NCBI GenBank assembly: GCA_013360295.1
Contig: JABWCL010000021.1
Span: 1-64,000 of the forward strand
DNA from: Ignavibacteriaceae bacterium
Lineage (GTDB): Bacteria; Bacteroidota; Ignavibacteria; Ignavibacteriales; Ignavibacteriaceae
Reading direction: 5' to 3'
Length of the DNA: 64,000 nt
Shown: piece by piece, positions 55,358-64,000 of the stretch
Numbering within the stretch: position 1 is the first letter of the stretch
Layout: each line of letters begins with the position of its first letter
Position numbers and translations under genes: made by a program
Notes under the pieces: generated by a model
Told to the model about the DNA's origin: nothing
What the model saw: only the letters and a program-made list of their open reading frames with translations
The model's database searches: none

Positions 55358-56059
55358 CTATCGGTTATCTATAATGAATATGAACTCACCTTTAAGTTTC
55401 TGCCGGGATACTTCATTCAGCACCTGCTTTAGAGTACCCCTGAAGTAGTTTTCATCCGGATAAGTCAACTGGTAAGCAAGAACGACATCAGGATTCGTGT
55501 TAAAAACCGGCATCGCAGCTTCGAGCAGTTGAACCAGCCTGTAGGGAGTATCCATCAGGATGATTATTTCGCGGATCTTTCTCAGCCGCTCCAACTCTTT
55601 TCTCCTGATCTCTTTTTTTGGTGAGAGCCAACCGGCAAAGTAGAATGAATCAAGTTCCAGCCCGCAGCCGGAGAGAGCAGTGGTAAGCGAGTTCGCGCCG
55701 GGGAGGGTAACAATCTTTATTCCCAAATGGACACAAGAGCGGATTAGGAGGGTCCCGGGGTCAGAAAAAACAGGGGTACCGCAATCCGAAATGAGGGCGG
55801 CGCTCCCTTTCCCGCTGATCAAGTCAGCAAGAGCGGCAGCCTCCTCCGCCTCGTTGTGTTCGTTTAGGGAGGCGAGTTCGGCGTTGATGCCGAAATGGGA
55901 AAGCAGCCTTCGGGCTTCCCGGTATTCTTCACAAATTATTATTGGTGCCTGTTTTAAAACTTCTATTGCCCTCAATGTCATATCGCCATAATTACCAATT
56001 GGTACGGGAACGATGTAAAGGCAGACCTCGTTATTGTTGATATCTTCGTTTGAACTCAT
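55358..56059 (-). CDS. RsmI-like tetrapyrrole-methylase-fold methyltransferase
   Basis: A 234-residue SAM enzyme similar to RsmI, the 16S rRNA C1402 ribose methylase. It has LYIVPVPIGNYGDMTLRAIEVL, EEYREARRLLSHFGI, ISDCGTPVFSDPG, LPGANSLTTALSGCGL and ILMDTPYRLVQLLE. It is shorter than the usual 270-280 residues and lacks the C-terminal part, as in a second RsmI-type paralogue of Bacteroidota. I chose the ATG at 56059: the open frame extends 47 residues further into the SulP gene, but 56059 begins one base after that gene's stop and the family start is LYIVPVP. Confidence 0.82.
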   Translation of the reverse strand: MSSNEDINNNEVCLYIVPVPIGNYGDMTLRAIEVLKQAPIIICEEYREARRLLSHFGINAELASLNEHNEAEEAAALADLISGKGSAALISDCGTPVFSDPGTLLIRSCVHLGIKIVTLPGANSLTTALSGCGLELDSFYFAGWLSPKKEIRRKELERLRKIREIIILMDTPYRLVQLLEAAMPVFNTNPDVVLAYQLTYPDENYFRGTLKQVLNEVSRQKLKGEFIFIIDNR

Positions 56060-56060
56060 C

Positions 56061-57773
56061 TCAGTTTTCACTCTTTTCTCTCTGGACTTCGGATTTAAAA
56101 TCGGCGGGCCTTCCAACTTTTGGCATACCGAGCAGCACTCTTGCGCGATCCAAAGAATCGTCAATGTTACCGAAAATATTTTCCTCGCCGATCTCGTCAA
56201 GCAGATTGTATTGGGTCAGAGCGAATAACGGTTGCGCGTGTACACCTGAAAGGAGGAGGTGGGTGCCGGTCTTTTTATTTTCTGCTATTATCTCACTAAG
56301 AAGATTCAAACCGGTGGCATCAATTGCCAGCACGTTGCGCATCCTCAGTATCATCACCTTCGGAGGAGTTTCCATTTCCATCATAAGTTCTTTGAATTTC
56401 GTAGCGGCGCCGAAGAACATCGGCCCGTTTATTTCATATACTTCAACCCCCGGCGGCACTGATTTTTTCGAAATGCTGTTGATATCCTCTTTCTCCTCCT
56501 CATCCTGCATCTCTCCCCTGATGATGTTGATGTTGGCCTCATTCGCCATCCTGCGCATAAATAATATCACCGCGAGTATCATCCCGACTTCAATCGCAAC
56601 AGTAAGATCAAAGATAACCGTCAGGCCAAAAGTAGTAAGAAGAACAATGACGTCACTTTTAGGGCTCTTAAGAATTCTTCGGAACACGTGGTATTCGCTC
56701 ATATTCACGGCAACCATCACAAGTATCGCGGCGAGGGTAGCCATTGGTATAAGTTTTGCCCACTCGCCAAAAAGAAGCATTATGAGTAGCAGCGTAACCG
56801 CGTGGGTAATTCCGGCTATCGGGGTTCTTCCCCCGTTCTTAATGTTAGCAGCAGTCCGGGCAATTGCTCCTGTAACAGGGATGCCGCCAAAGAGAGGAGA
56901 AGCCACATTCGCTACCCCCTGCGCGACGAGTTCAACATTCGATTTATGTTTACCTCCGATCATTCCGTCAGCTACAACCGCGGAAAGAAGCGCTTCAATG
57001 GCCGCGAGTATGGCAATCGTAGTTGCCGGCATTATCAATCCCTTCATTTCGTGATAATTAAGCGCCGGGAAACTAAGTGCGGGAATTGATGAAGGGATAC
57101 TGCCGAACCTGGATTCAATAGTCTCCACATTTAAGCCAAAGAATTGTGCTAAAAAAGTAGAAACGAATATGGCAATAATTGAACCCGGGATTTTCTTTGA
57201 GACTTTAGGCCAGAAAATAATGATCAGAAGGGAAAGCAGGGCGATTATCAATGCCTGAAGATTGTAGGAGGTGATATTTTGAAAATAATAGATCCATTTG
57301 TCAACAAAGTCAGCCGGAACATTTTGAAGTCCAAGCCCGAAAAAATCATTGATCTGGCTGGAGAAGATCACAACCGCGATACCGCTTGTGAATCCGACCA
57401 CAACAGGGTAGGGAATGAACTTAATAATTTGCCCGAACTGTGCCAGGCCCATTATAATGAGAATTACACCCGCCATCATCGTTGCCAACATTAGTCCGTT
57501 AATCCCGTACTGCTGAACGATACCGTAGACGATAATGATAAAGGCACCGGTCGGGCCGCCGATCTGCACGCGGCTTCCTCCTAAGAAAGAAACGATGAAT
57601 CCTCCAATGACGGCAGTGATCAGCCCCTTCTCGGGCGAAACGCCTGAGGCGATTCCGAATGCAATAGCCAGAGGCAGCGCTACAATACCGACTAGGATGC
57701 CGGCTGAAATATCTTTCATTATCGTCGCGCGGTCAAGCTTTGGCAGCAGGACGAAGAATTTTGGTTTGAACAT
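56061..57773 (-). CDS. SulP-family anion transporter with STAS domain
   Basis: A 570-residue membrane transporter for sulfate, bicarbonate or another anion. The family start is LTKEISAGI-like: [37 protein letters not shown]. The signature [17 protein letters not shown] and the late [33 protein letters not shown] are standard. About 12 hydrophobic segments precede a C-terminal STAS domain (about 435-560) with [20 protein letters not shown]. It is followed at once by the RsmI-like gene. A 334-codon open frame on the other strand is a shadow. Confidence 0.93.
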
Positions 57774-57912: not shown

Positions 57913-58977
57913 TTATTTTTTTATAAATTCGATGAGCTTTATCAGTTCATCACCTCCCGGATTACTTTTATCTTGGAAAAGAGTATTTATGCGGTCAAGA
58001 TTTATGGAAGATTTTGCGGGTAAAATAAACAGAGCTAAAGTTAAATTTGAAAATATTGCATTTTCTATGCTAGTTGTCCACCCCTTATGAACAATACCAT
58101 TTCGGATTGAATTGAATTTAATTCCAAACGCTATCTTATCATCAGGCGGAAGAGCCACAACTCTTCTTAAAACCGTATCAATTTTCGGACCAAGTTTAAA
58201 ATCTGAATCGCTAACAGAGTGAAAATATCTCTTAAATAATTTGATAGCATCAGCAAAATTAATTTTAGAAATATCAATAATCTCTTGTTTCGTTTTATTA
58301 TGGCAGCAAAATGTCTCTATGCATTTATGGTAAAGTTCTACAACAATCCTCAAATCAGTTACTGATTTATTAATAAAATGCAGCTTTAACCGGGCAGAAA
58401 TATCCCGTAACTCAAAAATTAATCCCTGTTTCAGTTTCAAATCATCAAATGGTGTGTGCAGTAATTTGGTATTCTTTAGATAAAGTTCAATTGCGCGATG
58501 GTTGTACCAGATGTCCCAGAAGAAATCGGTTTCCTCTCTTTCCTTTAATAGTTCTGCAAACGACGCTTTAAACCAACTTTGAGGTAGATCCCGTCTGAAG
58601 GATTTATCAAATACCCTAACGATCCAGCCTCTTCTCAAATATTCATTATGTTCTGCAAGTAAATCGTATTTATTGTACTGGGCGGAATAAGTCGCAATCA
58701 GCGAAAAAGGGCATAAATTAAATGCGTGTTCAATGATCTTGAAGCCTGATTTGCGAGTACCACTGTTTTTACCTTCCGAAAAATCAATATCAACGAAAAG
58801 AAAATCAAAGTAAATACCTTTATCTGCATACTCAGTAAGAATCTGTAAAGCTTCAGACTCGCTTTGGCATTCAGTAATAGAATCTTCTGAAAAACCAAGT
58901 TCTATGATTTCATAAATGATAATGTTCCTGAATTCCGCGGAATCATCAGCAACGAAAAATTTATAATCTTTCCTCAT
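57913..58977 (-). CDS. Response regulator with C-terminal HEPN-like RX4H domain (cassette 1)
   Basis: A 354-residue cytoplasmic protein. The receiver (1-128) has the acidic pair Asp11-Asp12, the phospho-Asp in FLFVDIDF (Asp63), Thr96 in IATYSAQYN and Lys125 in VFDK. After the phospho-Asp it carries an insert (SEGKNSGTRKSGF). Residues about 150-350 are all-alpha with no HTH or GGDEF/EAL. They contain FNSIRNGIVHKG, in which Arg292-Asn293 and His297 fit the RX4H (RNxxxH) active-site motif of HEPN ribonucleases. The paralogue at 61414 keeps both this motif and the receiver residues at the same positions. The gene overlaps the kinase gene by 17 bases. RNase activity is inferred. Confidence 0.8.
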   Translation of the reverse strand: MRKDYKFFVADDSAEFRNIIIYEIIELGFSEDSITECQSESEALQILTEYADKGIYFDFLFVDIDFSEGKNSGTRKSGFKIIEHAFNLCPFSLIATYSAQYNKYDLLAEHNEYLRRGWIVRVFDKSFRRDLPQSWFKASFAELLKEREETDFFWDIWYNHRAIELYLKNTKLLHTPFDDLKLKQGLIFELRDISARLKLHFINKSVTDLRIVVELYHKCIETFCCHNKTKQEIIDISKINFADAIKLFKRYFHSVSDSDFKLGPKIDTVLRRVVALPPDDKIAFGIKFNSIRNGIVHKGWTTSIENAIFSNLTLALFILPAKSSINLDRINTLFQDKSNPGGDELIKLIEFIKK

Positions 58978-59920
58978 CTTTTATCTCCGTGATATATTTC
59001 GGGATTTTTATTAACACAGTTGTCCATTCGTTGATCTTGTCGACTTTTACGTCATAATCAATATTCAGCAATTTGAGCCACCCTTTAACGATTCTTAAAC
59101 CGACTTTTGAGGATGTAGAACCTTCAGGTTCCTGTTCTGATTTACCGAGGAGCCATTCTCTGAAATCATCACCCATTGCCAAATTATTTGAAAGCACGCA
59201 AAGTACAGATTCCTTGTCAGCTGATATGCGGATTTTAACAAGTGGGGCAGCTTCGTTTGTATTTTTAAAGGTATTCTTCAGAAGATCTTTGAGTACTGCA
59301 CCCAGGGCTATTTTAATTTGTTCAGTAGTACTGATCCCACAATCGCCTTCGATAATGATCTCTGGATTTGTTTCCGAAAGAAGTTTCTGGTGTTTTCTTG
59401 AGCTTAATCTAAGTATGGAGAGACTTTCAAAAATCATCGCTACCTGTTTATTGACAATTTCTGATATATCCGCCGGGATAACTCGATCGTTTTTATTGAA
59501 GTAATAAGCTCTTTTAAGCCTCCACATAATTAGGTCGGTCAGTTCTTTTACTTCCATTAGGTGGGCGAAGGCCTTTTTACGGTGAGGCGAGTCCTCCATT
59601 TTAAGTAATGCATGTTGAGCGATAAAAATGTCAGAATTGAAGGTATGAGCCATCTGATCGGCAATACTTTGCCATTCTTTAACTTTGGTTTCTAATTCAG
59701 TTTTTTCAGCTCGTTCTGCTAATAATGCATTTTGTTGAAATTCTTGTTCCCACTTAAGGTCTTCTTTTGAATCACGAAGCTCAATTTCTAAACTTTTTAT
59801 TTGAGCAATTAGTCCTTCGTTTTCAACTTTTAGCTCTGATAATTGTTTTTCAAGTTTTTCAATGATCAGTTTTTGCTCTTCAACTATCTTAGGATTTGAT
59901 CCCAGTTCATTATTTCCCAT
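58961..59920 (-). CDS. Soluble coiled-coil histidine kinase (cassette 1)
   Basis: A 319-residue kinase with no membrane segment. Residues about 10-80 are a coiled coil (KIVEEQKLIIEKLEKQLSEL, heptads rich in Leu, Glu and Lys). The phosphorylation helix is DQMAHTFNSDIFIAQHALL (His92). The ATPase domain has the N-box ILKDLLKNTFKNTNE-like sequence (Asn216), but the DxGxG motif is replaced by SNNLAMGDD, and KVGLRIVKGW takes the G2-box position. It overlaps protein A by 11 bases and the regulator by 17. The paralogue at 62456 shows the same H-box, N-box and missing DxGxG. Confidence 0.82.
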   Translation of the reverse strand: MGNNELGSNPKIVEEQKLIIEKLEKQLSELKVENEGLIAQIKSLEIELRDSKEDLKWEQEFQQNALLAERAEKTELETKVKEWQSIADQMAHTFNSDIFIAQHALLKMEDSPHRKKAFAHLMEVKELTDLIMWRLKRAYYFNKNDRVIPADISEIVNKQVAMIFESLSILRLSSRKHQKLLSETNPEIIIEGDCGISTTEQIKIALGAVLKDLLKNTFKNTNEAAPLVKIRISADKESVLCVLSNNLAMGDDFREWLLGKSEQEPEGSTSSKVGLRIVKGWLKLLNIDYDVKVDKINEWTTVLIKIPKYITEIKDEERL

Positions 59921-61187
59921 GGATCAACAACAATTGATTCTCAATACTGAATTTTGCGGGATTATCAGGATTATCCGTATAATTAAGCGGTGTGGGATAA
60001 GCCCAGAGCAATTCTTCTTTTAATTCAGAAGCTTCTTGTTTGTCGCAAAAATGAAGCCGTGGCACGGTATTTTTTTGGAGCCAGTCTTGGATTAGTTTGT
60101 ATTTATCTATTTGGGCTGTTTCGTCATTATAAAGAAAAGCGTATAATATATTATGAGCCTCTTTCCAAGATTCTGCAGTTGGATTGAAAAAGTTATTTGC
60201 ATAATTATCAAGATCTTCCGAAACATCATAATAAATTATAGGCCGCACATTAACATACTGCACTGCATTGGGGATGATAAATTTATCACCGGTAAAGTAT
60301 AAGGCAAATACGCCTGCATTTTTCTCACTTGAATATTGCGCGTGGAAATCAGAAACCGCGTCTTTTGGCACGTCGGTTAAGTTCTTGTAAATATCCTGAT
60401 ATTTATTATCCTGTAGAGCCAGCGTTCCCTCTTTCTGTGAGTAACTGAATGCCGGAAGAGCTTTTATAGTATCCAGAAGATTGCGATTGGTTTCTAAAAG
60501 CGGTTTGGGAAAGTTTTTTATTTCGACAGGCATCCTGTTTACTTCTCTGATTACTCTTTGAAGTGTCAGAGTTTTTATCTGAAGTCGCAAAAAAATTTTT
60601 TTGATTGCTCTGTCAATTGGAGTGAATACTTTTGATGTGCGGTATATCTTAATAGTTCTTAATTCCGCGGGGAAATAAAGGCTCTGTCGGGATTCTATTT
60701 GGCCATCTTTTTCGATTCTATATTCATAGGATTTGCTTTTGGGATTTAGCAACTTTTTAACAACCTCCGAGATATGTTCAACAAAATCGTCCGGCTCCAC
60801 ATACTCAAAAATATTGGTAATATGAGGATATGTATTGGCAAAGCTTGATTTACATATTTCCGAAAATGTATTAACATCCAAAATAGTAGTCGTGTTTTCA
60901 AATTTATCCCGCAATTCAGCAGCAATAAATTCATAAAAGCGCGCAGTTGAAATTATTACATCCTCAAAAACAAGGAGGGTCCCTTCGCTAGAATCTGCTA
61001 TGCGTTTAATACGGGCAGAGTCCTCAAATAGTTTATAAACGAATGGTTGGTTACCAACTCGTTTGTTGATTTCATCAATATAAATACCGAGGTGCTCTTC
61101 TTCGGCGCTAATTTCATTAAATTCCTCAGTATCGAAGTGATAAATTGCTTCCAGGATTAATAAATCTATTTTTTCTAATAATTTCAT
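59910..61187 (-). CDS. Unrecognised cassette protein A (cassette 1)
   Basis: A 425-residue soluble protein that heads the cassette. I recognise no family. It is helical and rich in Glu, Lys and aromatic residues, with no signal peptide or membrane segment. The C-terminal 160 residues (about 270-425) contain VFALYFTGDKFIIPN, RPIIYYDVS, KLIQDWLQKN and TPLNYTDNPDNPAKF. The partial protein at 63340 resembles this part: GIWLKDPVVF, VYIFSATD and LLNFSNNPAHPYF. The N-terminal part may sense a signal and pass it to the kinase it overlaps by 11 bases. The start is the ATG at 61187. Confidence 0.7.
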   Translation of the reverse strand: MKLLEKIDLLILEAIYHFDTEEFNEISAEEEHLGIYIDEINKRVGNQPFVYKLFEDSARIKRIADSSEGTLLVFEDVIISTARFYEFIAAELRDKFENTTTILDVNTFSEICKSSFANTYPHITNIFEYVEPDDFVEHISEVVKKLLNPKSKSYEYRIEKDGQIESRQSLYFPAELRTIKIYRTSKVFTPIDRAIKKIFLRLQIKTLTLQRVIREVNRMPVEIKNFPKPLLETNRNLLDTIKALPAFSYSQKEGTLALQDNKYQDIYKNLTDVPKDAVSDFHAQYSSEKNAGVFALYFTGDKFIIPNAVQYVNVRPIIYYDVSEDLDNYANNFFNPTAESWKEAHNILYAFLYNDETAQIDKYKLIQDWLQKNTVPRLHFCDKQEASELKEELLWAYPTPLNYTDNPDNPAKFSIENQLLLIHGK

Positions 61188-61413
61188 AGACGATTATCTA
61201 GTCTTTGGTATTGTTGGATAATATGGACATTTTTCAGTTCTTTCTAAAAGATTACAGATGTGATATATATTTCTATTGGGGAGAATACCAATTCGATATA
61301 ATACACCTTTTCGGATAGTCATATCTTAACAATCCTCGTTACAAATATATAAAATATAAGTTTTTAGGTTAATTCCGCAACTTTGCCGCAATTTATCCAT
61401 CTCTTATTCTAGA

Positions 61414-62463
61414 TTATTTCCTGACAAACCGAATTACATCGGTAAGATAATTCATTCCCAAATCCTTACTTCCGATTCCGAACTGTTCGATTTTATCAAT
61501 CTGAATGTCCTTCTTGAATGGCGAAGCATACAGCGTTAGAGTTAGATTCGCAAATAAGATATTTGCCATTGTCAGATTAAAATCGAGATTTGGATGCACT
61601 GAATTATTGCGGAGTGAATTAAGCCGGTAACCGTGACGGAGTTTCTCCTCTGAGTTGAAAGCTATCAGTTTTCTTAAGGCGGAATCGTCTGAACCGAGGC
61701 CGCGCTCAAAGTATCTGCCGAGCAATCTTTCGGCTGCTTCTTTGTTATCTTCGGATTGCTGTTTGATTGTTGCCGGGTCTTTATCCTCGGCGCAGTAAAC
61801 TTCGAGGCAGCGATGATATAACTGGATGATCAGTCGGAAAACGACCTCATCCGCGTTAAAAAGTTTTCTCTTTTTTAAAAGTACGATTATGGCTTCCAGA
61901 TTCTGTTTTATCTCGGCTTTTTTGATGCTGTCTTCTTCTTCGTCCGGGCTGAGCCGGGTTCTGTCAACAAAACTCTTTATGAGTTTGTGGTTATACCATA
62001 CATCCCACAGATAATCGTTAGCTCCAATTGATTCCAGATGTTTGATGAACCTGTTTCTGAACCACTCTTCAGGATTTGATTGCTGTCTCTTATCAAAAAC
62101 ATCTACTATCATCCCGCGGTTCTGCAGTTCAATGTGTCTTGGGCTCAGATCAGCTGTGTTGTATTGTGCGGAATAGGTGGCTATTGTTGAAATCGGGCAG
62201 TGCTCAAACGCTTTTTCAATAATTTCAAAGCCGGAATCTCTTTTCCCGCCTTTATTGTCTTCCTTAAAGTCAATATCCACAAACAGAAAATCAAGGTGCT
62301 GGCCTTTTGCGTGTAATTTATCAAGAGTCTGGAATGCCCCGATAGCGCTGTCGCACTCCGAGAAAACTATTTTGAAATCAGTGATTTTATTTAATTCATC
62401 AATAATTACATCCCTGGCTGCAATCGTATCTTCCGCTATAAGAATCCGGTATTCTCTACTCAA
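61414..62463 (-). CDS. Response regulator with C-terminal HEPN-like RX4H domain (cassette 2)
   Basis: A 349-residue paralogue of the protein at 57913. The receiver has Glu11-Asp12, Asp63 in FLFVDIDF, Thr96 in IATYSAQYN and Lys125 in VFDK, all at the same residue numbers as in cassette 1. The C-terminal all-alpha half has LNSLRNNSVHPN, where Arg285-Asn286 and His290 fit the HEPN RX4H motif. The start is TTG (MSREYRILIAED), overlapping the kinase gene by eight bases. Similarity to cassette 1 is clear over the full length, but the sequences are well diverged, so the duplication is old or the two came separately. Confidence 0.8.
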   Translation of the reverse strand: MSREYRILIAEDTIAARDVIIDELNKITDFKIVFSECDSAIGAFQTLDKLHAKGQHLDFLFVDIDFKEDNKGGKRDSGFEIIEKAFEHCPISTIATYSAQYNTADLSPRHIELQNRGMIVDVFDKRQQSNPEEWFRNRFIKHLESIGANDYLWDVWYNHKLIKSFVDRTRLSPDEEEDSIKKAEIKQNLEAIIVLLKKRKLFNADEVVFRLIIQLYHRCLEVYCAEDKDPATIKQQSEDNKEAAERLLGRYFERGLGSDDSALRKLIAFNSEEKLRHGYRLNSLRNNSVHPNLDFNLTMANILFANLTLTLYASPFKKDIQIDKIEQFGIGSKDLGMNYLTDVIRFVRK

Positions 62464-63337
62464 CTTTTATCTCCTTTGGTATGTATAAATAGACAGCAGT
62501 CTGGTTCTTTTCCGCGTCAAGTTCAACATTGTAATCTATTCTCAAGAGAGTCAGCCATTTTTTTAAAATCCGTAACCCGACTTTCGATGATTTTGATATT
62601 TCCGGCTCAATATTAGCGTCCCCAACAAACCACTGTTTAAATTCGACCGGCATCAGCCGGTTATTCGTAATGATCAATTCCACTTCCGTCGGCTCCTCTT
62701 TAAGAGATACAGTAACCATCGGATTTTCTTCATCAGTATTTTTAAAGGCGTTTCTGAGAAGGTCTTTTAATATCAGATCGAATACATCCTTAAGGTGTAC
62801 TGTGGCTCTAACCACGCAATTGCCCGATAAAGCAAATTCGGGGGTGAGTTCAGCCAGTTTTTGCTGGTGTTCCCGGACTGACAGCCGCAGAGTAGTAATG
62901 CCTTCTTTAACTGTATTGAGCTGTGTCTGGTAAGCCTCTGCGATATCAATTTTAACAATCTCCTCATCCTTGCGGATAAAATCTTTTCGTTTGAGGTACC
63001 ACATAATAAGATCATTCAGGTCACGGAGATGCTTTAAATGGTTAAATGCTTTAGTTCTGTTTGGGGAGGCTTCAAGTTTTAACAGGAAGGATTGTGCCAG
63101 AAATATATCTGTGTTAAAGGTATGCGCCATTTCGTCAACGATTAATTCCCATTCACGGGATTCAGTGTTCTTTCTCGTCTTTGAGAGCAACGACTGGAAA
63201 TTGGACTCTTTTTCCTGAAGTAAATCTTTATATTTTTTCTCTATAGAATCTAATTGTAATTTTAATATTTGATTTTGCGCACGAAGATTTGTGAGATTGT
63301 TTTTATGGTTTAATTCGTTCATATGATCGCTCTGCAT
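62456..63337 (-). CDS. Soluble coiled-coil histidine kinase (cassette 2)
   Basis: A 293-residue kinase without membrane segments, starting at the ATG at 63337 (a TTG two codons upstream is possible). A coiled coil lies at about 5-58, followed by the H-box DEMAHTFNTDIFLAQSFLL (His72), the N-box ILKDLLRNAFKNTDE (Asn196), and a G2-like KVGLRILKKWLTLL. The DxGxG motif is replaced by IITNNRLMP. The H-box MAHTFN-S/T-DIF is shared only with cassette 1 in this window. The gene begins two bases after the end of protein A and overlaps the regulator gene by eight. Confidence 0.82.
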   Translation of the reverse strand: MQSDHMNELNHKNNLTNLRAQNQILKLQLDSIEKKYKDLLQEKESNFQSLLSKTRKNTESREWELIVDEMAHTFNTDIFLAQSFLLKLEASPNRTKAFNHLKHLRDLNDLIMWYLKRKDFIRKDEEIVKIDIAEAYQTQLNTVKEGITTLRLSVREHQQKLAELTPEFALSGNCVVRATVHLKDVFDLILKDLLRNAFKNTDEENPMVTVSLKEEPTEVELIITNNRLMPVEFKQWFVGDANIEPEISKSSKVGLRILKKWLTLLRIDYNVELDAEKNQTAVYLYIPKEIKVE

Positions 63338-63339
63338 AT

Positions 63340-64000
63340 TCAAAAAGGATATAAAACATCTCCCAATTGTTTTTCCCTAATTTTGCTTAAAGATTCAAAA
63401 TAAGGATGTGCGGGATTGTTTGAAAAATTAAGTAATGGGAAATAATTATTAATTAATTTCGAAGTTAAATCTTCTGAAATTGTCTCCGGGACGCTATAGA
63501 GTCCAAAATTGAAGTGTTTATTGATGCATTCTGTTACAAGTCGCTTATCTGACAATTTTAATTGGGAATAGAAATCAGATTTGGACTCAACCGATTGATT
63601 TAGAGCCAGTGTCAGAAGATTAATCATAAAATCATTCCCTTCATGCAAAGTAAACATATCACTGATTGTAAGAGTGTGTTTGATGTCAGTTGCTGAGAAA
63701 ATATATACTAAAGAAAGATTATTAAGGTATTCAAGGAATTCGCTCCCAAAAACAACTGGATCTTTTAACCATATACCAATATAGTGTCTCCCATAGTCCT
63801 TAAATTCTCTTAGATTCTCAATTAATTCATAATAATTTAATCGGTTCAATGTTATTCTCTCACCGATGACTGAAGGATGATTTACCAACTTAAATAAATT
63901 ATTTTCGGTGTGAATACCCAGTTGTTTTGAGTTTTCTTTAACAAATTTTATTAATCGGGTCAATTTAATTGGCTTCTTCACATCATTGTAATCTGTCGGC
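63340..64000 (-). CDS. Cassette protein A, 5' part outside the window (cassette 2)
   Basis: About 219 codons are visible; the frame stays open to the right edge, with a GTG at 63979 as a possible internal start. The C-terminal part resembles protein A of cassette 1: RHYIGIWLKDPVVFGSEFLEYLNNL, VYIFSATDI, and LNFSNNPAHPYFESLSKI. The region before that is poorly matched. It probably begins further right, as the protein in cassette 1 is 425 residues. AT-rich like its partner. No known domain. Confidence 0.65.
   Translation of the reverse strand, partial: PTDYNDVKKPIKLTRLIKFVKENSKQLGIHTENNLFKLVNHPSVIGERITLNRLNYYELIENLREFKDYGRHYIGIWLKDPVVFGSEFLEYLNNLSLVYIFSATDIKHTLTISDMFTLHEGNDFMINLLTLALNQSVESKSDFYSQLKLSDKRLVTECINKHFNFGLYSVPETISEDLTSKLINNYFPLLNFSNNPAHPYFESLSKIREKQLGDVLYPF

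Follow-up and report, generated by a model that had tools for sequence, protein, structure and literature searches.

The window, by which we mean the whole 64,000-nucleotide stretch of DNA analysed, contains two gene cassettes arranged in tandem (Table 1). Each cassette runs from a gene for a winged-helix/degenerate GIY-YIG protein (gene 2), through a gene for a soluble histidine-kinase-like protein, to a gene for a protein joining a receiver to a HEPN-like domain. Neighbouring genes overlap throughout, by 4 nt (gene 2/HK1) and 8 nt (HK1/RR1) in cassette 1, and by 11 nt (gene 2/HK2) and 17 nt (HK2/RR2) in cassette 2. Cassette 2 starts 226 nt after cassette 1 (spacer 61188-61413) and lacks its own CARF gene. 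A small ORF of ~42 codons, MTIRKGVLYRIGIL..., lies between the cassettes (61196-61323, minus strand).

Table 1. Genes and motifs of the two tandem cassettes (positions are those of the window).
Feature	Position	Strand	Description
Cassette 1 gene 2	63340..64000	-	425 aa, winged-helix + degenerate GIY-YIG protein; runs on to contig position 64617
HK1	62456..63343	-	Soluble coiled-coil histidine-kinase-like protein; H74, N-box N198, G2-box KVGLR; NN in place of G1 box
RR1	61414..62463	-	Receiver (~1-150) + all-helical HEPN-like C-terminal domain (~151-349); last gene of cassette 1
RR1 Asp63 codon	62275..62277	-	Presumed phospho-acceptor
RR1 R285-N286-N-S-V-H290 codons	61594..61611	-	HEPN-type RN-x3-H motif (RNNSVH); helix 274-289 ends within it
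Cassette 2 gene 2	59910..61187	-	425 aa; variable N-terminus, winged helix (187-261), degenerate GIY-YIG domain (280-407)
HK2	58961..59920	-	Histidine-kinase-like protein of cassette 2
RR2	57913..58977	-	Receiver-HEPN paralogue of RR1; final gene of cassette 2
RR2 RNGIVH codons	58087..58104	-	RN-x3-H motif (R292, N293, H297)

The RR1 open reading frame was confirmed as encoding 349 aa from a TTG start codon. A sequence-only reading had presented RR1 and RR2 as two diverged regulators sharing Asp63, Thr96, Lys125 and an RN-x3-H motif with identical spacing. The two proteins are indeed diverged (37% identity), and D63, T96, K125 and the motif are present in both. Spacing is equal within the motif, whereas the stretch between receiver and motif differs in length by 7 residues. 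Nor are they stand-alone regulators, each being the product of the last gene of a tandem multi-gene cassette.

To this pair, genome searches added homologues to give an alignment of 11 distinct receiver-HEPN proteins from nine genomes, belonging to two families of one class, with a mean pairwise identity of 35% (range 22-63%). Six of the 199 aligned C-terminal columns are invariant (Y216, L263, R285, N286, H290 and I325). The three motif residues are all among them, an outcome with a chance probability of 1.5e-5 when columns are treated as independent; free variation at these positions was not seen. RN-x3-H is thus kept in 11/11 homologues, with a polar residue after the arginine, as is usual for the HEPN motif R-x4-6-H. 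In the receiver, D12, D63, S98, D124 and K125 are likewise invariant in all 11. Invariance of both sets of residues supports the proposal that selection acts on the switch as well as on the C-terminal motif, and that RxxxxH did not arise by chance. The switch itself needs one correction: Asp63 and Lys125 held up, whereas Thr96 is replaced by Val in the most divergent homologue. S98 is likely to be the canonical switch Ser/Thr of RR1 in its place, since it is invariant, directly follows strand 93-97 in the predicted model and lines up with the Ser found in other response regulators from Bacteroidota. A candidate for the acidic residue of HEPN helix 2 is E221 in helix 205-225, which is Glu in 9/11 homologues, Asp in one and Ile in one.

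The AlphaFold2 model of RR1 (pLDDT 88.4, pTM 0.87) has a receiver fold in its N-terminal part, matching the ComE REC domain with Z 17.7 and 2.0 A over 130 residues. Fold, acidic pocket, phospho-acceptor Asp, Ser/Thr and Lys are therefore all found together in RR1. The C-terminal part of the model is all helical, with R285 and N286 in the final turns of helix 274-289 and H290 in the loop that follows, ahead of the next long helix (299-313). A survey of HEPN domains places the Rx4-6H motif at the end of a helix and the start of the following loop, and notes that the arginine is followed by a polar residue, in most cases N, D or H (PMC3710099). According to the model, the RR1 motif would thus sit where HEPN RNases carry theirs. 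In one divergent member only, P0019, the motif region is also covered by a match to the HEPN family Ymh/TIGR02391 (E 1.6e-3, short of the curated cut-off). The C-terminal domain matched no Pfam family, its sequence gave nothing meaningful in the PDB, and the matches listed by VIA-align for the full-length model were all to receivers. Based on the motif, its placement in the model and the one sub-threshold profile match, assignment of the domain as HEPN-like has good, though not final, support.

The kinase-like proteins share an invariant H74 within an A/S-H-[STA]-[IFV] box, an invariant N-box N198 and a conserved G2 box, KVG[LM]R, and HATPase_c was matched in 6/10 members (best 1.2e-7). They therefore possess a candidate phospho-acceptor His and a GHKL-type ATPase domain in which the N and G2 boxes are kept. 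The G1 box D-x-G-x-G, however, is absent from 10/10 members and is replaced by an invariant Asn-Asn without glycines. Autophosphorylation is consequently doubtful and kinase activity uncertain, hence our use of the name "kinase-like".

GIY_YIG_2 was matched in 7/8 gene-2 proteins, and the GIY-YIG domains of UvrC and R.Eco29kI were among the structural matches of a low-confidence model (Z 5.8-6.5). The catalytic residues are not conserved in this set: the Tyr varies, no conserved Arg was found, and literal GIY and YIG are retained only by P0034. Because catalytic Tyr and Arg are not conserved, we infer that the gene-2 protein is a nucleic-acid-binding sensor rather than a nuclease. One gene 2 (G263, L014:12460-13995, minus strand) has a stretch of ~90 residues within its variable N-terminal part that is repeated in tandem almost perfectly; the duplication is absent from other members, which suggests fast evolution of the sensor part.

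The order gene 2, kinase-like gene, receiver-HEPN gene is kept at every locus in which all three genes are sequenced (G000, twice; G373, G263, G302, G458, G457 and G538), and three further loci, broken by contig ends, still carry the kinase-like and receiver-HEPN genes. The composition of the cassette is well supported. Homologues were found only in Ignavibacteria/Chlorobiota within the genome collection; searches of plasmids and of viral contigs returned none, and no recognised defence island surrounds the window loci. No description of a receiver/HEPN/kinase/CARF arrangement was found in PADLOC or in openly available journal papers, and within this scope we provisionally regard the cassette as previously undescribed. 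Matches to adenylate kinase, glycosyl hydrolase, PPIP5K2 and similar proteins were weak and were taken as chance.

A fourth component lies next to the cassette. In 7/7 loci with flanking sequence, the adjoining gene encodes an RtcR/Csm6-like CARF regulator; in the window genome it occupies contig positions 64695-65669, just outside the window. These neighbours matched PADLOC RtcR_PspF2 (3.9e-20), Csx1/Csm6 (3.5e-10) and Pfam RtcR (2e-6), and combine a CARF domain with a DNA-binding output, either a C-terminal wHTH-like domain or AAA+HTH. The CARF-wHTH form, in the same direction as the cassette, occurs at four loci (window genome, G263, G302 and G538), and the CARF-AAA-HTH form, of RtcR type and divergently oriented, at three (G373, G458 and G457). 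We dropped a ligand call (cyclic oligoadenylate versus RtcR ligand) from the CARF motif SSGTP, the best NCBIfam match being Csm6 and the best PADLOC match RtcR-like. Sigma-54 promoter sites precede gene 2 in 3/3 CARF-AAA loci (shuffle p <0.0005 to 0.003). G373 has a perfect consensus site, TGGCACG-N4-TTGCA, 83 nt upstream of gene 2, and the sites in G458 and G457 are strong. None was found in CARF-wHTH loci, including upstream of the window's two cassettes. Confinement of the sites to loci whose CARF protein is of sigma-54-activator type connects this protein with the cassette's transcription.

In known receivers, phosphorylation is for the most part activating and acts via dimerisation, and HEPN active sites form at dimer interfaces. 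Phosphorylation-driven assembly of an RNase site is therefore the simplest reading of the receiver-HEPN protein. Taking the components together, we give a probability of roughly one half to a CARF-regulated, probably defensive four-part toxin cassette whose HEPN RNase is dimerised and switched on by phosphorylation. The CARF regulator would control expression of the cassette; the gene-2 protein would probably bind nucleic acid and act as the sensor; and the coiled-coil kinase-like protein would deliver phosphate to Asp63, or regulate its transfer. The receiver-HEPN protein would then dimerise, so that two subunits contribute their R285, N286 and H290 residues to a composite RNase site. RNA cleavage by the assembled site would stop growth of the infected or damaged cell. 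Such a cassette probably represents a stress or anti-phage shut-down system that has not been described before. Weighing against this reading are the provisional HEPN assignment, the missing G1 box of the kinase-like protein, the position of the window loci outside any recognised defence island, the failure of the plasmid and viral-contig searches to yield homologues, and genomes that carry the module although Cas10 was not detected in them.

Cleavage by HEPN RNases yields 2',3'-cyclic phosphates (PMC3710099), and the CARF domain of RtcR binds tRNA fragments with cyclic-phosphate ends (PMC7790460), which makes positive feedback on expression plausible; a similar loop has been proposed for CoCoNuT systems (PMC11090510). 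RNA ends left by the HEPN domain may thus act through the RtcR-type CARF protein to amplify the cassette once triggered. A tentative extension is a self-amplifying shut-down circuit, in which an aspartate phosphorelay gates a HEPN RNase toxin and the RNAs cut by this toxin induce its own expression via an RtcR-type CARF sensor; we consider this possible but clearly less probable than the four-part toxin cassette itself.

The opposite logic deserves consideration, in which the phosphorylated receiver restrains HEPN, and the RNase is freed when phosphorylation ceases or the kinase-like partner is lost (for instance when a phage shuts it off), much like a toxin guarded by a phospho-antitoxin. Loss of the G1 box, resembling the situation in phosphotransfer or partner proteins that are not active kinases, is in keeping with such an arrangement, and the gene overlaps suit a toxin-partner pair; yet the full receiver set and the histidine of the kinase-like protein are invariant, and the usual mode of receiver activation described above runs the other way, so that we hold this reading to be unlikely. 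Still less probable is a C-terminal domain without catalytic function, serving as a helical output that binds RNA or protein, in a cassette that is an ordinary stress regulator. The missing PDB sequence match and the weak HEPN profile match would be compatible with this, as would the existence of HEPN domains without a nuclease role (PMC3710099), but invariance of R, N and H amid free variation is a pattern typical of an active site.

A further alternative is that the cassette is an ancillary module of type III CRISPR. Cyclic oligoadenylate made by Cas10 would then be detected either by the CARF protein or, in the way suggested for Cam2 (PMC11229360), directly by the receiver, and HEPN would be the effector. 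In G395, a divergent kinase-like/receiver-HEPN pair lies directly upstream of cas6 and csm1/cas10 of a type III-A locus (L038:1-4413, G395:C185), and the Csm6 match of the CARF neighbours and the Cam2 precedent point the same way. The III-A locus of the window genome, complete-looking, can be counted on this side as well. It lies on another contig, unlinked to the module (L057:5407-14232, G000:C29), and includes a CARF-HEPN gene of Csm6-like type plus another gene that is CARF-like. Against this alternative, Csm1/Cmr2 was undetected in at least three genomes with the module (G302, which is one contig, G373 and G441), the association between module and Csm1 was not significant (p 0.058), and Cam2 loci have no kinase partner, whereas the present cassettes do. 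Adjacency to Cas10 was found at the one divergent locus only, and encoding with Cas10 or dependence on it is not a property of the module as a whole. Given the undetected Csm1/Cmr2 and the non-significant association, we rejected the idea that the module depends on type III CRISPR in general, and we conclude that the module is not a strict CRISPR accessory; an ancillary role of this kind appears doubtful.

The cassette shares features with several known systems. Like the type III CRISPR effectors Csm6/Csx1, it couples an R-x4-6-H HEPN motif to CARF sensing, with a dimeric active site proposed here, but CARF and HEPN are on separate proteins, the HEPN domain shares its chain with a receiver, and between the two comes a kinase-like protein. 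Detocs (DtcA-DtcB-DtcC) likewise pairs a histidine kinase with a response regulator carrying a toxic output domain; the present cassette differs in its HEPN-like effector, its extra GIY-YIG-like protein and its CARF regulator. The definition of Detocs includes a second, stand-alone receiver, DtcB (PMC11728103), and no such ORF was found in the cassettes. With RtcR-regulated rtcAB and RtcR-associated CoCoNuT, the cassette has in common an RtcR-like CARF regulator beside genes that include a HEPN domain, a sigma-54 promoter (here at the CARF-AAA loci) and possible feedback by cyclic-phosphate RNA; unlike them, it has neither RtcAB nor a McrBC-type GTPase, and would signal via a two-component pair. 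Cam2, a membrane-bound receiver protein encoded in type III CRISPR loci, also places a receiver domain in a CRISPR-linked setting, but has transmembrane helices and lacks a kinase partner, in contrast to the soluble HEPN output and dedicated kinase-like gene described here.

The known switches of HEPN toxins are usually nucleotide ligands, antitoxins, nucleotidyltransferases or P-loop ATPases. Fusion of HEPN to a receiver, together with a dedicated kinase-like partner, would bring aspartate phosphorylation into this range, and the neighbouring RtcR-type CARF regulator would offer a natural setting for asking whether HEPN cleavage products act as signals. The self-amplifying circuit, if true, would link two-component signalling with CARF/HEPN immunity.

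Finally, a SulP transporter gene and an rsmI-like gene lie downstream of cassette 2 (window positions 55358-57773), and the same genes are found downstream of the module in G441 (L036). Given this shared flank, RR2 is the positional orthologue of the G441 locus.
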